From assembly GCA_002841155.1 (NCBI GenBank), contig PHEH01000004.1, forward strand, positions 1 through 64,000: a stretch of DNA of 64,000 nt, in the 5' to 3' direction. Source of the stretch: Alphaproteobacteria bacterium HGW-Alphaproteobacteria-18 (GTDB lineage Bacteria > Pseudomonadota > Alphaproteobacteria > Caulobacterales > Hyphomonadaceae). The translations under genes and the position numbers were made by a program. Positions 3,993 to 49,731 of this stretch are shown here, piece by piece. The notes below the pieces were generated by a model that ran no database searches, was not told where the DNA came from, and was given only the letters and a program-made list of their open reading frames with translations. Position 1 is the stretch's first letter. Every line of letters starts with the position of its first letter.

Positions 3993-4079
3993 CAAGTTCG
4001 ACTGCGTGCAGACCGGAACAATACAGCGCAATTATTTGCGTGTTTTCAGGGTGTTAAAAGCAGAAAGCAGGCTGAAGTC

Positions 4080-4169
4080 TGGCGGAGAGGAAGGGATTCG
4101 AACCCTCGATACGCGTTAACGTATACGCCCTTAGCAGGGGCGCGCCTTCAGCCACTCGGCCACCTCTCC
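4080..4169 (-). tRNA. tRNA-Ser(GCT), including CCA
   Basis: Reverse complement GGAGAGGTGGCCGAGTGGCTGAAGGCGCGCCCCTGCTAAGGGCG...GGTTCGAATCCCTTCCTCTCCGCCA; acceptor stem, long variable arm and GCT anticodon. Confidence 0.95.
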
Positions 4170-4397
4170 AGCGACCAGAACCCCTACAGATCATGGCCAA
4201 AGCGGGCAAGCCTCATTTGTCGTAGAATGCAGTCAATCGCCCCCGATTGAAGGAAAAGATGGGCAAGACTATGCTGTTTCAGGGCCCTGCGGGGCCTAAG
4301 GCTGACTACAGAAGTACTCGCAGCATAGCGCAAAACCCATGCTGACACTTCTCCATATGGAAATTCCACAGGGCAGATCGCCCTCGCCCGCCCCTCT

Positions 4398-20105: not shown

Positions 20106-20846
20106 ATGTTCGCGTCACAAGTGCGTCTCATCTCCCTGGCCGGCGTCATGTCGGCTGCGTTTGCCACAACGGCTCTGGCACAAAGCCAGCCCGTAGCATG
20201 GTCTCCCAGCTATGGGGGTGCCTGCGCAGACTGTGATCTCTCCGGCCGCAACCTTTCGGGATGGACGCTGAACGGCGCAAACTATTCCGGCGCCCGCTTC
20301 GATTATGCCTTCATGCGCGGGGTGCGGGCCACGGCCGTCAATATGCAGAGCGCCAATGTCACGGGCGCAGATCTTCGCGGCGCCGATCTCACCAGCGCGC
20401 GCTTTGCCGACGCGGTGTTCAACAATGCCCGCATGCAGGATGTGCTCGCCTCTGGCGCGGATTTCCGCCGCGCGCGGATGCAGGGCGCAAACCTTGAACG
20501 GGCGCGCCTGATCGGGGTGAACTTCGAGGGCGCCTCCCTCCTCTTCGCCCGGCTGGAAACGGCTGACCTCTCCGGGGCAAACGGCACCGGCATGATCCTG
20601 GACCGGGCAAATCTGCGCGGCACGATCTTCGACGGGGCAAACCTCTCTGAAGCAAGCCTCTCAGGGGCAGACGTTACAGGCGCCTCCTTCCGCGATGCCC
20701 GTCTCCCCAGCGCGGACCTCACCGGCGTTACCGGCTCCGAATCAGCTGATTTCGCCGGCGCCTGTGGCTCGCTCTCAACCCGCCTGCCAGCCGATCTGCG
20801 TCTGCCACTGTGCGATGTTCCGGACGTCATCAGCAAAGAAGACTGA
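20106..20846 (+). CDS. secreted pentapeptide repeat protein
   Basis: Signal peptide MFASQVRLISLAGVMSAAFATTALAQ followed by A(D/N)LxxA repeats. Confidence 0.9.
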   Translation: MFASQVRLISLAGVMSAAFATTALAQSQPVAWSPSYGGACADCDLSGRNLSGWTLNGANYSGARFDYAFMRGVRATAVNMQSANVTGADLRGADLTSARFADAVFNNARMQDVLASGADFRRARMQGANLERARLIGVNFEGASLLFARLETADLSGANGTGMILDRANLRGTIFDGANLSEASLSGADVTGASFRDARLPSADLTGVTGSESADFAGACGSLSTRLPADLRLPLCDVPDVISKED

Positions 20847-31959: not shown

Positions 31960-32982
31960 ATGAGCCAATTGCAGCAGATCGTCCTCGCCCAGTATTGCGA
32001 CGGCCCGCCAAAGCCCTCTGACTTCCGCCTTGAAACCCTGCCCCTGCCGGAGCCGAAGGACGGCCAGTTCCGCGTGGCCCATGTCTGGTGCTCGGTCGAT
32101 CCCGGCACACGCTCGCGCCTTTCGGGCGGAGACAGCTACGCCGCCGCCCTGCCACTCGGCAGACCCATTGACGGCTTCAGCGTCGGCATCATTGACGCCT
32201 CCAGCAATCCTGACTGGCCGGTTGGCACCAAGGTGTTCTGCGCCGGTGGCTGGAAAACCCATTCGATCCAGTCCGGCAAGGGCTTCATCGGCAAGGTGAT
32301 GGACGTTCCGGGCGTGCCGCTGTCGGCCTGGATCGGCGTGCTGGGCGTGCCGGGGCTGACGGCCTGGTTTGGCGTGAAGGATGTCGCCCGGTTCAAGGAA
32401 GGCGATGCGGTCCTCGTCACCTCCGCCGCCGGACCTGTAGGCGCCACAGCAGGACAGCTCGCAAAAGCCTGGGGCGCCTCGAAGGTTGTTGGCGTCGCGG
32501 GCAGCGACGAGAAGTGCCGTTGGCTGGTGTCCGAAGCGGGCTTTGACGCTGCGATCAACTACAAGACCGCTGCCGATCTTTCTGGCGCGATTGCTGCCGA
32601 ATTCCCCAAGGGCGTCGATGTCCTGTTCGACAATGTGGGGAATGCGATGGTCGATACCGTGCTGCCGCTGATGGCGCTGAACGGGCGGATCTGCATTTCG
32701 GGCCAGGTTGCCGATTATAACCTCAAACCTGAGGACACGCCGGGCATTGTCCACACCAAACCCTTCATCACCCACCGGGTGAACATGCAGGGGCTGGTGG
32801 TGTTCGATTTTGCGCGCGCTTTCCCCGAAGCCCTTGGTTCCATGGCGAAAATGATCGCCTCAAGCGCCCTGAAAATTCAGGAAGACCGTTTCGAGGGCAT
32901 CGCGGCCATGCCCGAAGCCTTCTGCGGACTGTTCCGGGGGGAAAATACTGGCCGGCGGGTCGTGAAAGTCGGCGCCGAATAG
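31960..32982 (+). CDS. NADP-dependent MDR-family oxidoreductase
   Basis: AWIGVLGVPGLTAWFGVKDVARFKEGDAVLVTSAAGPVGATAGQLAKAWG. Confidence 0.9.
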   Translation: MSQLQQIVLAQYCDGPPKPSDFRLETLPLPEPKDGQFRVAHVWCSVDPGTRSRLSGGDSYAAALPLGRPIDGFSVGIIDASSNPDWPVGTKVFCAGGWKTHSIQSGKGFIGKVMDVPGVPLSAWIGVLGVPGLTAWFGVKDVARFKEGDAVLVTSAAGPVGATAGQLAKAWGASKVVGVAGSDEKCRWLVSEAGFDAAINYKTAADLSGAIAAEFPKGVDVLFDNVGNAMVDTVLPLMALNGRICISGQVADYNLKPEDTPGIVHTKPFITHRVNMQGLVVFDFARAFPEALGSMAKMIASSALKIQEDRFEGIAAMPEAFCGLFRGENTGRRVVKVGAE

Positions 32983-33758: not shown

Positions 33759-33865
33759 CTGAAACTCAAAATTCTAGAACGATGGTCTATCAGATGTGGG
33801 TTGTGTTTGGGTGAAGGTTAATTGGTAAATTCCATACCCACCTTAAGCATTTGCGCGTCAAAAGC

Positions 33866-33932
33866 CGGACAAACCGGGACACTTCGGGACAATCCAGGAC
33901 AGATCGGGACAACTCAGGACACTTCCGGACAC
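33866..33932. repeat. seven-unit 10-bp-period GGACA array
   Basis: GGACA at 33867, 33877, 33887, 33897, 33907, 33917, 33927, exact 10-bp spacing. Confidence 0.95.
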
Positions 33933-33933
33933 G

Positions 33934-33967
33934 AAAAAGCCGGAGGCGGGCGTCCCTGCCTCCGGCT
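33934..33967 (-). terminator. rho-independent terminator for ndk
   Basis: Minus strand AGCCGGAGGC-N10-GCCTCCGGCT followed by TTTT. Confidence 0.85.
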
Positions 33968-33999
33968 CTGATCTGGTGCCCGAGGGCAACCAAATTGGG

Positions 34000-34422
34000 T
34001 TAGCTCGTGAGGTCAGCCTCGGAGAAGAACTGCGCGATTTCGAGCGCGGCGTTCTCAGCCGAATCCGAACCATGCACCGAGTTCTCGCCAATCGATTTGG
34101 CGAAGAGTTTGCGGATGGTGCCGTCGGCGGCGTCAGCCGGGTTGGTGGCGCCCATCACTTCGCGGTATTTCGTGATGGCGTCTTCGGCTTCGAGAACCTG
34201 AACGACGACCGGGCCGGAGATCATGAAGTCGACCAGCTCGCCGAAGAAGGGGCGCGCGGAGTGGACCGCATAGAAACGCTCGGCCTGGGCGCGGGTCATC
34301 TGGATGCGGCGCTGGCCGATGATGCGCAGGCCGGCTTTCTCGATCACGGCATTGATGGCGCCGGTCAGGTTACGCTCGGTGGCGTCGGGCTTGATGATGG
34401 AAAAGGTGCGCTGCGCGGCCAT
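34000..34422 (-). CDS. ndk: nucleoside-diphosphate kinase
   Basis: [35 protein letters not shown]...[18 protein letters not shown]...VHGSDS. Confidence 0.97.
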
Positions 34423-42676: not shown

Positions 42677-45259
42677 ATGAAACTTGTCGTCGTCGAGTCT
42701 CCGGCAAAGGCCAAAACGATCAACAAGTACCTGGGGAAGGACTATAAAGTCCTCGCCTCCTACGGTCACATCCGCGATCTGCCGTCGAAAAACGGCTCGG
42801 TTGACCCCGAAAACGACTTCGAAATGGTCTGGGAGGCCGATGCCAAGTCCGCCAAGCGGATCTCCGACATCGCCAACGCCCTGAAAGACGCCGACACGCT
42901 GATCCTGGCGACTGACCCGGATCGCGAGGGCGAGGCCATCTCCTGGCACCTGGTCGAGGCGCTGCGCAAGCGCCGGGCGCTCAAGAAAGATGTCGCCATC
43001 GAGCGCGTCGTGTTCAACGCCATCACCAAGAGCGCCGTCACCCAGGCGATGGAGCATCCGCGCGCCATCGATGCCGAACTGGTCGATGCCTATCTGGCGC
43101 GCCGGGCGCTGGACTATCTGGTGGGCTTCAATCTCTCCCCGGTCCTCTGGCGCAAGCTGCCGGGCTCCCGCTCGGCCGGCCGCGTTCAGTCTGTGGCGCT
43201 GCGCATCGTGTGCGACCGCGAGAACGAAATCGAGAGCTTCCGGGCGCAGGAATACTGGAACATCCTGGCGCAGCTGCGCGCCCCCGATGGCACCGCTTTC
43301 GAAGCGCGCCTGCACAGCCTGGATGGCGAGACGCTGAAGAAATTCACCCTCGGCAATCAGGGCGACGCAAACCGCGCGCTGGAGATCGTCAAGGTCGGCG
43401 GCTATTCGGTCACCAGCGTCGAAGCCAAGCCCGTCAAGCGCAATCCGCCCCCGCCCTTCATTACCTCCACGCTGCAACAGGAAGCCAGCCGCAAGCTCGG
43501 CTTCAACGCCAAGCGCACGATGCAGGCCGCCCAGAAGCTCTACGAAGAAGGCCGCATCACCTATATGCGGACCGATGGCGTCAACATGGCCGAGGAAGCC
43601 TATGTCGCCGCGCGCAGCATGATCCAGACCAATTACGGCGCGCGCTACCTGCCGGAAAACACCCGCCGCTATTCCTCCAAGGCGAAGAACGCGCAGGAGG
43701 CCCACGAGGCCGTGCGTCCGACCGACTTCAATCTGCGCCCGGAAGATTATCACGGCGACGGCGACCTGAAGAAGCTCTACACCCTGATCTGGCGCCGGGC
43801 TGTTGCCTCCCAGATGGAAACCGCTCTCTTCGAGCGCACCACCATCGACCTTGCCTCCAGGGACAAGCGCGCCGGCCTGCGGGCCACCGGTCAGGTGCTG
43901 GTGTTTGACGGCTTCATCAAGCTCTATGCCGAAGGCCATGATGCCGGGGACGATGATGACGACGCCGAAGGCCGCCTGCCGAAAATGTCTGAAGGTCAGC
44001 ATGCGGACCTCCTGAAGGCGGACGCCAACCAGTCCTTCACCCAGCCGCCCCCGCGCTATACCGAGGCCTCGCTCGTCAAGCGCCTCGAAGAACTCGGCAT
44101 CGGGCGCCCCTCCACCTATGCCTCCACCATGTCGACGCTGGAAGACCGGGGCTATGTCCGCATCGAGGGCAAGGCGCTGGTGCCGGAAGATAAAGGCCGC
44201 CTAGTCACCGCTTTCCTCGAAAACTTCTTTGCACGCTATGTGGAATATGATTTCACCGCAGGTCTCGAAGAAAAGCTCGACGTCATCTCCGATGGCAAGC
44301 TCGACTGGAAAGCCTTCCTGCGCGAGTTCTGGGAGCAATTTGCCGCCGACATCGACGGCACCAAGGATCTGCGTGTTTCCGCCGTGCTCGACGCACTGAA
44401 CGAGGCGCTCGGCGCCTATGTGTTCCCGCGCACCGACGCCGACGGCAATGCGATCGAAAACCCGCGCCAGTGCCCGCTCTGCAAAGAGGGCGAGCTGTCG
44501 ATGAAACTCGGCAAGTTCGGCGCCTTTGTCGGCTGCTCACGCCATCCTGAATGTAAGTACACCCGCCAGTTTTCCTCCGAGGGCGGAGAAGGCAGCGCCA
44601 TCAGCCCGGACGGCAACGAGATCGGCCTGCATCCTGATACCGGCGCGATGATCCTGCTCAAATCGGGCCGGTTTGGCCCCTATGTGGAAATGGCCAATGG
44701 CGAAAAGCCCAAGCGCGCCAGCCTCGCCAAGGCAGACAATGCCGCCGAGCTCTCGCTGGACCGCGCCGTCGAACTGCTCAGCCTGCCGCGCGAAGTTGGC
44801 CCCCACCCGGAAGATGGCGAGATGATCCTCGCCAATTTCGGCCGCTTCGGGCCTTACGTTCAGCATGGCAAGACCTACGCAAACCTCAAAGACCCGCGCG
44901 ACGTGTTCACCATCGGCGTCAACCACGCCGTCTCGCTGATCGAAGACAAGAAAGCCCGCGGCTCAACGCGCGCGGGGGCAACGGCGCTGAAATCCCTCGG
45001 CGACCACCCCGATGGCGGCGCCCTCGAAGTGTTCGAGGGCCGGTATGGGCCCTATGTCAAATGGGGGAAGGTCAACGCCACCCTGCCCAAGGAAATCACG
45101 CCGGATGTGGTGACGCTTGAGCAGGCCATCGAACTGGTAAACGCCAAAGGCGGCAGCACAAAGAAGAAAGCCCCGGCCAAGAAGGCGGCCGCGAAGAAAC
45201 CGGCTGCGAAGAAAGCCGCGCCGAAGAAGAAGCCGGCGGCGAAGAAGGCTGAGGAGTAG
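42677..45259 (+). CDS. topA: DNA topoisomerase I
   Basis: MKLVVVESPAKAKTINKYLGKDYKVLASYGHIRDLPSK...ITYMRTDGVNM; Lys/Ala-rich C-terminus. Confidence 0.98.
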   Translation: MKLVVVESPAKAKTINKYLGKDYKVLASYGHIRDLPSKNGSVDPENDFEMVWEADAKSAKRISDIANALKDADTLILATDPDREGEAISWHLVEALRKRRALKKDVAIERVVFNAITKSAVTQAMEHPRAIDAELVDAYLARRALDYLVGFNLSPVLWRKLPGSRSAGRVQSVALRIVCDRENEIESFRAQEYWNILAQLRAPDGTAFEARLHSLDGETLKKFTLGNQGDANRALEIVKVGGYSVTSVEAKPVKRNPPPPFITSTLQQEASRKLGFNAKRTMQAAQKLYEEGRITYMRTDGVNMAEEAYVAARSMIQTNYGARYLPENTRRYSSKAKNAQEAHEAVRPTDFNLRPEDYHGDGDLKKLYTLIWRRAVASQMETALFERTTIDLASRDKRAGLRATGQVLVFDGFIKLYAEGHDAGDDDDDAEGRLPKMSEGQHADLLKADANQSFTQPPPRYTEASLVKRLEELGIGRPSTYASTMSTLEDRGYVRIEGKALVPEDKGRLVTAFLENFFARYVEYDFTAGLEEKLDVISDGKLDWKAFLREFWEQFAADIDGTKDLRVSAVLDALNEALGAYVFPRTDADGNAIENPRQCPLCKEGELSMKLGKFGAFVGCSRHPECKYTRQFSSEGGEGSAISPDGNEIGLHPDTGAMILLKSGRFGPYVEMANGEKPKRASLAKADNAAELSLDRAVELLSLPREVGPHPEDGEMILANFGRFGPYVQHGKTYANLKDPRDVFTIGVNHAVSLIEDKKARGSTRAGATALKSLGDHPDGGALEVFEGRYGPYVKWGKVNATLPKEITPDVVTLEQAIELVNAKGGSTKKKAPAKKAAAKKPAAKKAAPKKKPAAKKAEE

Positions 45260-48690: not shown

Positions 48691-49416
48691 ATGTCCGGCA
48701 TGCTCAAATCCGCGTTCGATAAAGAAGAAGACGGCGACGTCATCATCCGGGGAAAGCCGAGCCTGCGTCCCAAGGATGCGGCGACGCTGATCCTTGTGCG
48801 GCGCGACCAGGCCCAGCCGCGCGTGCTGATGGGCAAGCGCGCGGGCACCAACGCCTTCATGCCCGACAAATACGTGTTCCCCGGCGGGCGGGTAGACCCC
48901 CATGACGGCAAGGCGCTTGCCTGGCAGGAGCTGCGCCCCGATGTGGAGCACAAGCTGCGCCTGCTGTCGCGCCGCCTGCCCCGCTCGATGGCGCTGACCG
49001 CGATTCGCGAGCTGTTTGAGGAAACCGGCCTGATCATGGGCCGCTCGGCCGAAATGCCCGACACCTGCCCCATCGGCTGGGAAGATTTCCACAGGATGGA
49101 TATTGCGCCCGATCTTGCCCCGCTGACCTTCATCGGCCGGGCCGTCACCCCACCTTACCGCCCCCGGCGCTTTGATGCGCGCTTCTTCATGGCCGAGGCC
49201 GAGGAAGCCCTGATCGACGAGCGCCCCCCGGTGGACGGGGCGGAGCTGTCAGACCTGCAATGGGTGACGCTGGCGGACGCCATGAAGCTCGACCTGCCCT
49301 CGGTCACCCGGTTCATGCTGGAAGAGATCGGCGAGCGGTTGGCCAAACCGGCGGAGGATCACCGCCCACCCTATCTGCGCTGGACCCGTAGCGGGCATCA
49401 GACCGACCGTCTGTGA
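48691..49416 (+). CDS. NUDIX hydrolase
   Basis: VFPGGRVDPHDGKALAWQE...ALTAIRELFEETGLIMG. Confidence 0.88.
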   Translation: MSGMLKSAFDKEEDGDVIIRGKPSLRPKDAATLILVRRDQAQPRVLMGKRAGTNAFMPDKYVFPGGRVDPHDGKALAWQELRPDVEHKLRLLSRRLPRSMALTAIRELFEETGLIMGRSAEMPDTCPIGWEDFHRMDIAPDLAPLTFIGRAVTPPYRPRRFDARFFMAEAEEALIDERPPVDGAELSDLQWVTLADAMKLDLPSVTRFMLEEIGERLAKPAEDHRPPYLRWTRSGHQTDRL

Positions 49417-49424
49417 CCCGGCGG

Positions 49425-49470
49425 TGTCCCGCAACTGTCTCTGATTGTCCTGAAGTGTCCCGATTTGTCC
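49425..49470. repeat. five-unit TGTCC/T array, ~10-bp period
   Basis: TGTCY at 49425, 49436, 49446, 49456, 49466; reverse complement of the 33.9-kb GGACA array motif. Confidence 0.9.
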
Positions 49471-49563: not shown

Positions 49564-49731
49564 ATGGCCAAACCCGCAACCATCAAAATCCGCCTCAATT
49601 CGACGGCTGATACCGGCTTTTTCTATGTGACGAAGAAGAACCCGCGCACGATGACCGAGAAAATGGTCCAGCGGAAGTATGATCCCGTCGCCAAGAAGCA
49701 CGTCGACTTCAAAGAAGGCAAGATCAAGTAA
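49564..49731 (+). CDS. rpmG: 50S ribosomal protein L33
   Basis: [55 protein letters not shown]. Confidence 0.97.

Follow-up and report, generated by a model that had tools for sequence, protein, structure and literature searches.

The window analysed here, a stretch of 64,000 nucleotides from a Hyphomonas assembly, carries seven exact copies of GGACA in the gap between two genes (Table 1). Every step from one copy to the next is exactly 10 bp, and the intervening spacers are six different 5-base words (AACCG, CTTCG, ATCCA, GATCG, ACTCA, and CTTCC), as the first-pass annotation of this DNA had described. The gene on one side is presumably ndk, a name taken from that annotation and from sequence knowledge; homologues are present in 42 of 42 Hyphomonas genomes. 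On the other side lies a gene for a putative DUF883-like protein, whose name also comes from the annotation. Both genes are on the minus strand, so that in their direction the motif reads TGTCC. It begins directly past the T run of the ndk terminator, and its location between this terminator and the DUF883-like gene is as originally reported. No sigma-70-like promoter was found at the site. The corresponding RNA is not structured (fold z about -0.5 on both strands) and matched no Rfam family at E values up to 1.

A second array, of three exact units on the opposite strand, lies in the gap upstream of a gene that we take to be rpmG and just after a gene for what is presumably a NUDIX-type hydrolase, both named from sequence knowledge. 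Two imperfect units extend it. In relatives, the same gap holds ~8 units in the genome G427, ~3 GGCCA-type units in G448, and a mere trace in G431.

Table 1. Coordinates of the two GGACA arrays of the window and of the features beside them
Feature	Positions	Strand	Basis or remark
Putative DUF883-like membrane-anchored protein, 111 aa	33414..33746	-	ORF; downstream of the ndk array
ndk array, 7 x GGACA at 10-bp spacing	33867..33931	+	TGTCC on the minus strand
Intrinsic terminator of ndk, GCCGGAGGC hairpin and T run	33934..33968	-	Sequence reading; stem in the fold of 33850-33970
ndk, nucleoside diphosphate kinase (presumed)	34000..34422	-	ORF and homology; upstream of the array in the TGTCC direction
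NUDIX-type hydrolase gene (presumed)	48691..49416	+	ORF; ends just upstream of the second array
Imperfect units extending the second array, TGTCC at 49425 and TGTCT at 49436, 10-11 bp apart	49425..49445	-	Sequence reading
Second array, 3 exact GGACA units	49446..49470	-	Reads TGTCC on the plus strand
rpmG, ribosomal protein L33 (presumed)	49564..49731	+	ORF; downstream of the second array

Other repeats were also seen in the window. Positions 45179-45247 contain a 15-18 bp tandem repeat (AAGAAGCCGGCCGCG), probably encoding a lysine/alanine-rich protein tail, and two short tandem duplications, both imperfect, are found at 20575-20642 and 32310-32376 (30 and 36 bp).

Enrichment and placement of the arrays

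Within the window, GGACAN5GGACA pairs occur 8 times, 6 of them in the ndk array and 2 in the second array, compared to 0.10 expected from dinucleotide shuffles (the largest count in any shuffle was 1). The first-pass annotation had called for a genome-wide search and had allowed that the motif might be no more frequent than chance. In the whole assembly (G000; 3.88 Mb in 48 contigs), we observed 183 overlapping exact triples, 95 on the plus and 88 on the minus strand, and 0 for the reversed pattern, so that chance frequency can be set aside. Runs of 3-9 GGACA units numbered 42 in 1.27 Mb of G000 and contained 109 triples; scaling from these 42 runs gives ~70 arrays per genome. In the same 1.27 Mb, five permuted control pentamers never reached a run of 3 units, and none gave more than 6 pairs. 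The total count of GGACA there was 2272, of which 193 were inside arrays, versus 2025 expected; outside arrays, the count of 2079 corresponds to background. Given that permuted pentamers form no triple runs and that isolated GGACA stays at background, what is enriched is the array, not the pentamer.

Exact triples are present in six of 42 Hyphomonas species (G000, 183; G427, 150; G443, 146; G430, 74; G431, 6; and G448, 3), and none were found in the other 63 genomes of the family that were searched (105 in total). A class-wide sample of 387 genomes contained six others with one to three triples, all isolated. When one base of the core was freed, the count rose to 47 in G448 (GGNCA, with 0 in the control) and to 12 in G431; the other 36 congeners gave 0-4, the same as the reversed control. 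These 36 species do without arrays, which are thus dispensable there. A literature search on Hyphomonas repeats, and on GGACA repeats in connection with phage repressors, returned nothing relevant.

Most arrays lie outside genes (34 of 42 in G000 and 24 of 33 in G427), although only ~13% of the DNA does; these placements come from a simple codon-usage gene caller, and some calls, including a few of those within genes, may be wrong. Many arrays start no more than ~30 bp past the stop codon of the gene before them or, as in the ndk case, immediately behind a terminator. Between tandem genes, TGTCC is co-directional with the genes in 26 cases and opposite in 11 (P 0.02). Among 55 classified intergenic arrays, 9 are located between convergent genes, and 9 arrays are in divergent gaps. 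Inside genes, 14 arrays are in the GGACA sense versus 3 in the TGTCC sense, a bias to which the stop codons in TGTCC-sense spacers, TGATC for one, contribute.

The distance from an array to the downstream co-directional start ranged from 2 to 353 bp, and no promoter geometry shared among arrays was found. Given this range, the arrays in convergent gaps, and the ndk site with no sigma-70-like promoter, we rejected a role as promoter operators. Neither a functional theme nor a common regulator was found among the neighbouring genes, which are mixed housekeeping genes and include what we take, from sequence knowledge, to be dnaK, ftsZ-lpxC, rpoH, and rpmG. The link to replichore, origin, or terminus raised by the first-pass annotation was not borne out: over the 0-2.97 Mb that we mapped of the complete G427 chromosome, 28 plus-strand and 36 minus-strand arrays are interspersed, with no replichore polarity. 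Over the same interval, no regular spacing of arrays was detected (CV of 1.15 versus 0.98 for random placement, P 0.08).

Inheritance of cores and spacers

All 19 of the G000 arrays for which a G427 orthologue could be recovered have an array there. Because many of these G427 regions had been chosen for holding arrays, the unbiased support is smaller than 19/19; the G427 sites reached by synteny or on a regular grid all carried arrays too. Between the 19 orthologous arrays, identity was 0.95 for the core, 0.83 and 0.82 for the two flanks, and 0.58 for the spacer, this last value being low partly because gain and loss of units misaligns neighbours. Intergenic arrays do gain and lose units. At the ndk site, orthologous arrays are found in G427, G430, G443, and G448 (as a TGGCC variant in the latter), with unit number differing by one between G430 and G443; the array is degenerate in G431 and deleted in G437.

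Identical spacers were adjacent 6 times, compared to 3.4 expected (P 0.12), and 3 times versus 3.2 expected when array L044, with its four consecutive identical spacers, was left out. Spacer bigrams common to different arrays were seen 4 times versus 5.7 expected. Since adjacent spacers are no more alike than random and shared spacer pairs are not in excess, neither slippage nor block copying accounts for the arrays. This agrees with the original view that the repeats are not the product of simple slippage; neighbouring units are not near-identical, as they would be in unstable simple repeats, and it is the cores, not the spacers, that are conserved. The spacers are nevertheless constrained, with 57 distinct words among 147 units versus 77 expected under independence. 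In large part, this is because 117 of the 147 units have TG, CG, or CA, a flexible pyrimidine-purine step, at positions 6-7.

The masked 400-bp flanks of 31 of 40 arrays share nothing. Among the nine with matches, two are a neighbouring pair, and seven adjoin a separate palindromic repeat. This repeat, a palindromic mosaic (CCCCACCCCAACCCTCCCCATAGTCATGGGGAGGGG and relatives) accompanied by short repeated ORFs, was seen at L044, L058, L067, L070, L079, and L085, at contig ends and in the interior of G000 contigs, and is probably the cause of several contig breaks near arrays.

Arrays inside genes revealed how the motif came about. In thiL, array-bearing members of the clade match the cores at 21-25 of 25 bases. 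Three outgroup species match them at only 5-9 of 25 bases, yet match the spacers at 19-21 of 29. Because the outgroups share the spacers, which are the gene's own ancestral sequence, and not the cores, the motif was built in place by point substitutions. Across the array, residues were kept at, for example, the F-A, G, E-L, and W-G positions, and other amino acids changed. In G448, two of the same thiL units read GGCCA. G437 thiL retains 14 of 25 core bases and 23 of 29 spacer bases, a decayed array, and this species has lost the arrays at ndk, rnhB, and thiL, that is, at all three sites checked. In rnhB, the array adds ~10-14 residues in frame, at a place where other Hyphomonas have no such insertion. 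Empty-site comparison showed an insertion in rnhB and none in thiL; taken together, the two genes indicate that arrays can arise by substitution and by added units.

The early-branching G431 has few exact arrays and degenerate 10-11-bp units. It also contains a 20-bp dispersed element, CTCAAAAATACACGGTTTGA, in 18 copies, which occurs at several array sites, including ndk and rnhB, and is absent from the 41 other Hyphomonas genomes. At L280-L297, this element is often preceded by degenerate TGNCC units. Nothing else in the data points as strongly to some copying of sequence.

Arrays in viral contigs

Stretches with four exact GGACA units numbered at least 120 in viral contigs, compared to 52 and 71 for two permuted cores. 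Three different spacers were present in 42 of the 80 GGACA loci retained from these stretches, and in 9 of 52 and 31 of 71 control loci, the latter core being GGAAC. Because the GGAAC control is also rich in variable-spacer arrays, the phage parallel is not specific to GGACA; the excess seen with GGACA is moderate and not unique to it. The 31 GGAAC arrays with 10-bp units and variable spacers (L470-L540) were noted in their own right, and phages may commonly carry phased arrays with cores other than GGACA.

Several viral GGACA arrays are in or beside genes for primase, replication initiation, DnaB helicase, or terminase. Such replication and packaging surroundings are where phased initiator or terminase sites are known. 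The arrays at L298, L339, and L309, in or beside replication-initiation or primase genes, resemble iteron origins. At L307, L330, L363, and similar loci, two divergent arrays ~26-38 bp apart are located near the 3' end of a primase gene; the small gene that follows looks like one for a ribbon-helix-helix protein, and the one tested had no PHROG match. Arrays near terminase genes were seen at L312 and L315. No relatives of the proteins encoded next to phage arrays were found in the Hyphomonas DNA sampled.

Probable phased binding sites, alternatives, and known systems

We consider it probable, at about 0.6, that a single clade-specific DNA-binding protein uses the arrays as cooperative sites in helical phase. 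In the 19 orthologous arrays and in thiL, core and phase are conserved and the spacer is free, as in a cooperative phased binding array. Judging from the sequence, this pattern, together with an origin by substitution, a shift in dialect, and loss, would be expected for sites tracked by a co-evolving DNA-binding protein, and the suggestion made for the ndk array in the first-pass annotation, a putative cooperative binding array on one face of the DNA, appears to be the best-fitting reading. The 10-bp unit would consist of TGTCC, then usually TG, CG, or CA, and then three looser bases. With one subunit bound per unit, 3-9 of them would align or polymerise over 30-90 bp, all on the same face of the DNA; we infer this arrangement, a subunit for each turn, from the 10-bp phase. 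The force that conserves the arrays would then be a protein binding as a multimer. Rather than controlling particular promoters, this protein would act on the chromosome, in the packing, marking, transfer, or replication of DNA, since arrays are found behind stop codons, in convergent gaps, and within genes and keep no set distance to a start. We counted against a binding array the rnhB insertion and the CTCAAAAATACACGGTTTGA element of G431, which look more like copying, as well as the gain and loss of units, the lack of a theme among neighbouring genes, the dispensability in 36 congeners, and the unspecific phage parallel.

The copying that these two cases resemble is the basis of an alternative that we regard as unlikely, in which the arrays are a selfish repeat family with no host role whose units or whole arrays are copied by transposition or template switching, like REP/BIME or the Rickettsia palindromic elements. 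The in-frame units added to rnhB, the 18 copies of an element confined to G431 at some array sites, the strong restriction to one clade, and the lack of a functional theme are all in line with it, but most array flanks share nothing, shared spacer bigrams are not in excess, and array sites are stable between species. Moreover, in thiL only the cores changed and the spacers remained ancestral, which copying cannot do. Alternatively, the arrays could be marks for preferred DNA uptake or for packaging by a gene transfer agent, accumulating by molecular drive wherever they are tolerated. Dialects, in-gene arrays that alter amino acids, the absence of positional logic, the clade limit, the loss in one species, and the phage arrays near terminase genes would all suit such marks, and the uptake sequences of Neisseriaceae likewise have species dialects, which match the phylogeny (PMC3630211). 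Nevertheless, enrichment is confined to runs of at least 3 units and does not extend to isolated GGACA, and ~70 arrays leave tens of kb unmarked; we find this explanation rather improbable.

We give little credence to an RNA element in the 3' region of transcripts, such as a loading site for Rho, with UCC recurring every 10 nt, or a signal that limits antisense transcription. Array starts often within ~30 bp of a stop codon or terminator, the predominant TGTCC orientation between tandem genes, and the GGACA-sense bias within genes would agree with it; however, 11 tandem arrays are opposite, 9 are in divergent gaps, and 3 are TGTCC-sense inside genes, and the ndk array is neither structured as RNA nor a member of an Rfam family. 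Rho needs neither an exact 10-bp phase nor a fixed TGTCC core. A minisatellite, an unstable tandem repeat growing by replication slippage, is hardly credible: the tandem layout, the unit numbers that vary between species, as between G430 and G443 at ndk, and the four identical spacers of L044 are what it would produce, but adjacent spacers are no more alike than random, and the same core recurs at ~70 unrelated loci with 95% conservation versus 58% for the spacer. Binding by MraZ, a conserved ring-forming regulator, has next to no probability. Its sites share the architecture of a short core, a ~5-bp spacer, and direct repeats, and mraZ is found in the genus, but in 41 of 42 Hyphomonas genomes, array-free ones included. 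We ruled it out on inspecting eight mraZ promoters (G000, G427, G448, G437, G431, G443, G430, and G442; the box was seen at L572 around 4000-4350 and in its relatives), all of which keep 10-bp direct repeats of GCCCAT and have no GGACA array.

Returning to a clade-specific protein on phased sites, the phage arrays suggest a possible phage origin for it. A wider picture, which we offer tentatively and with little conviction, is that of a chromosome-marking system in which one such protein would form short filaments on the ~70 phased arrays and serve the chromosome as a whole, for instance in packing, DNA transfer, or origin-like control. A phage initiator or packaging protein may have been its source; the sites would come in dialects, and selection would rewrite housekeeping genes to hold them. 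The six array-bearing species, with near-intact, dialect-shifted, and decayed arrays, together with a relative that has lost them, make the binder findable by comparison and pulldown.

Several known systems resemble the arrays in part. KOPS-type replication-oriented motifs are likewise short and dispersed over the chromosome, but the arrays have no replichore polarity in G427 over 0-2.97 Mb. REP/BIME, RUP, and the Rickettsia palindromic elements also occur in many dispersed intergenic copies, some of them in-frame within genes; these are palindromic and have a sequence common along their full length, whereas GGACA arrays lack a palindrome and common flanks, and their spacers are not copied from one array to another. 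Uptake sequences of Neisseriaceae and Pasteurellaceae are similarly dispersed in and between genes, limited to clades, and divided into dialects. Those known consist of individual 10-12-mers that occur thousands of times. In the arrays, by contrast, the single word is not enriched (2079 versus 2025), only phased runs of at least 3.

MraZ boxes consist of a short core with a ~5-bp spacer in direct repeats at 10-bp spacing, and MraZ is multimeric. The likeness to GGACA arrays is thus in short-core direct repeats spaced by one helical turn. However, the MraZ box is a single short one (three repeats here) in its own promoter, with GCCCAT as the core in Hyphomonas, and GGACA arrays number ~70 per genome, reach 9 units, and are absent from the mraZ promoter. 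Iteron and operator arrays, such as lambda O-type origins, the sites of ribbon-helix-helix proteins of the ParR/omega kind, and terminase sites, are also phased direct repeats with variable spacers; they occur once or twice per replicon beside the gene for the binder, unlike the ~70 dispersed arrays of Hyphomonas, for which no linked binder was found. To our knowledge, no known system matches ~70 phased arrays per chromosome with a conserved core, a free spacer, dialects between sister species, and the override of coding sequence seen in thiL. Known precedents are phased direct-repeat sites at individual promoters, centromeres, and origins, on the one hand, and dispersed motifs with dialects, in the form of single uptake words, on the other; the GGACA arrays combine the two.
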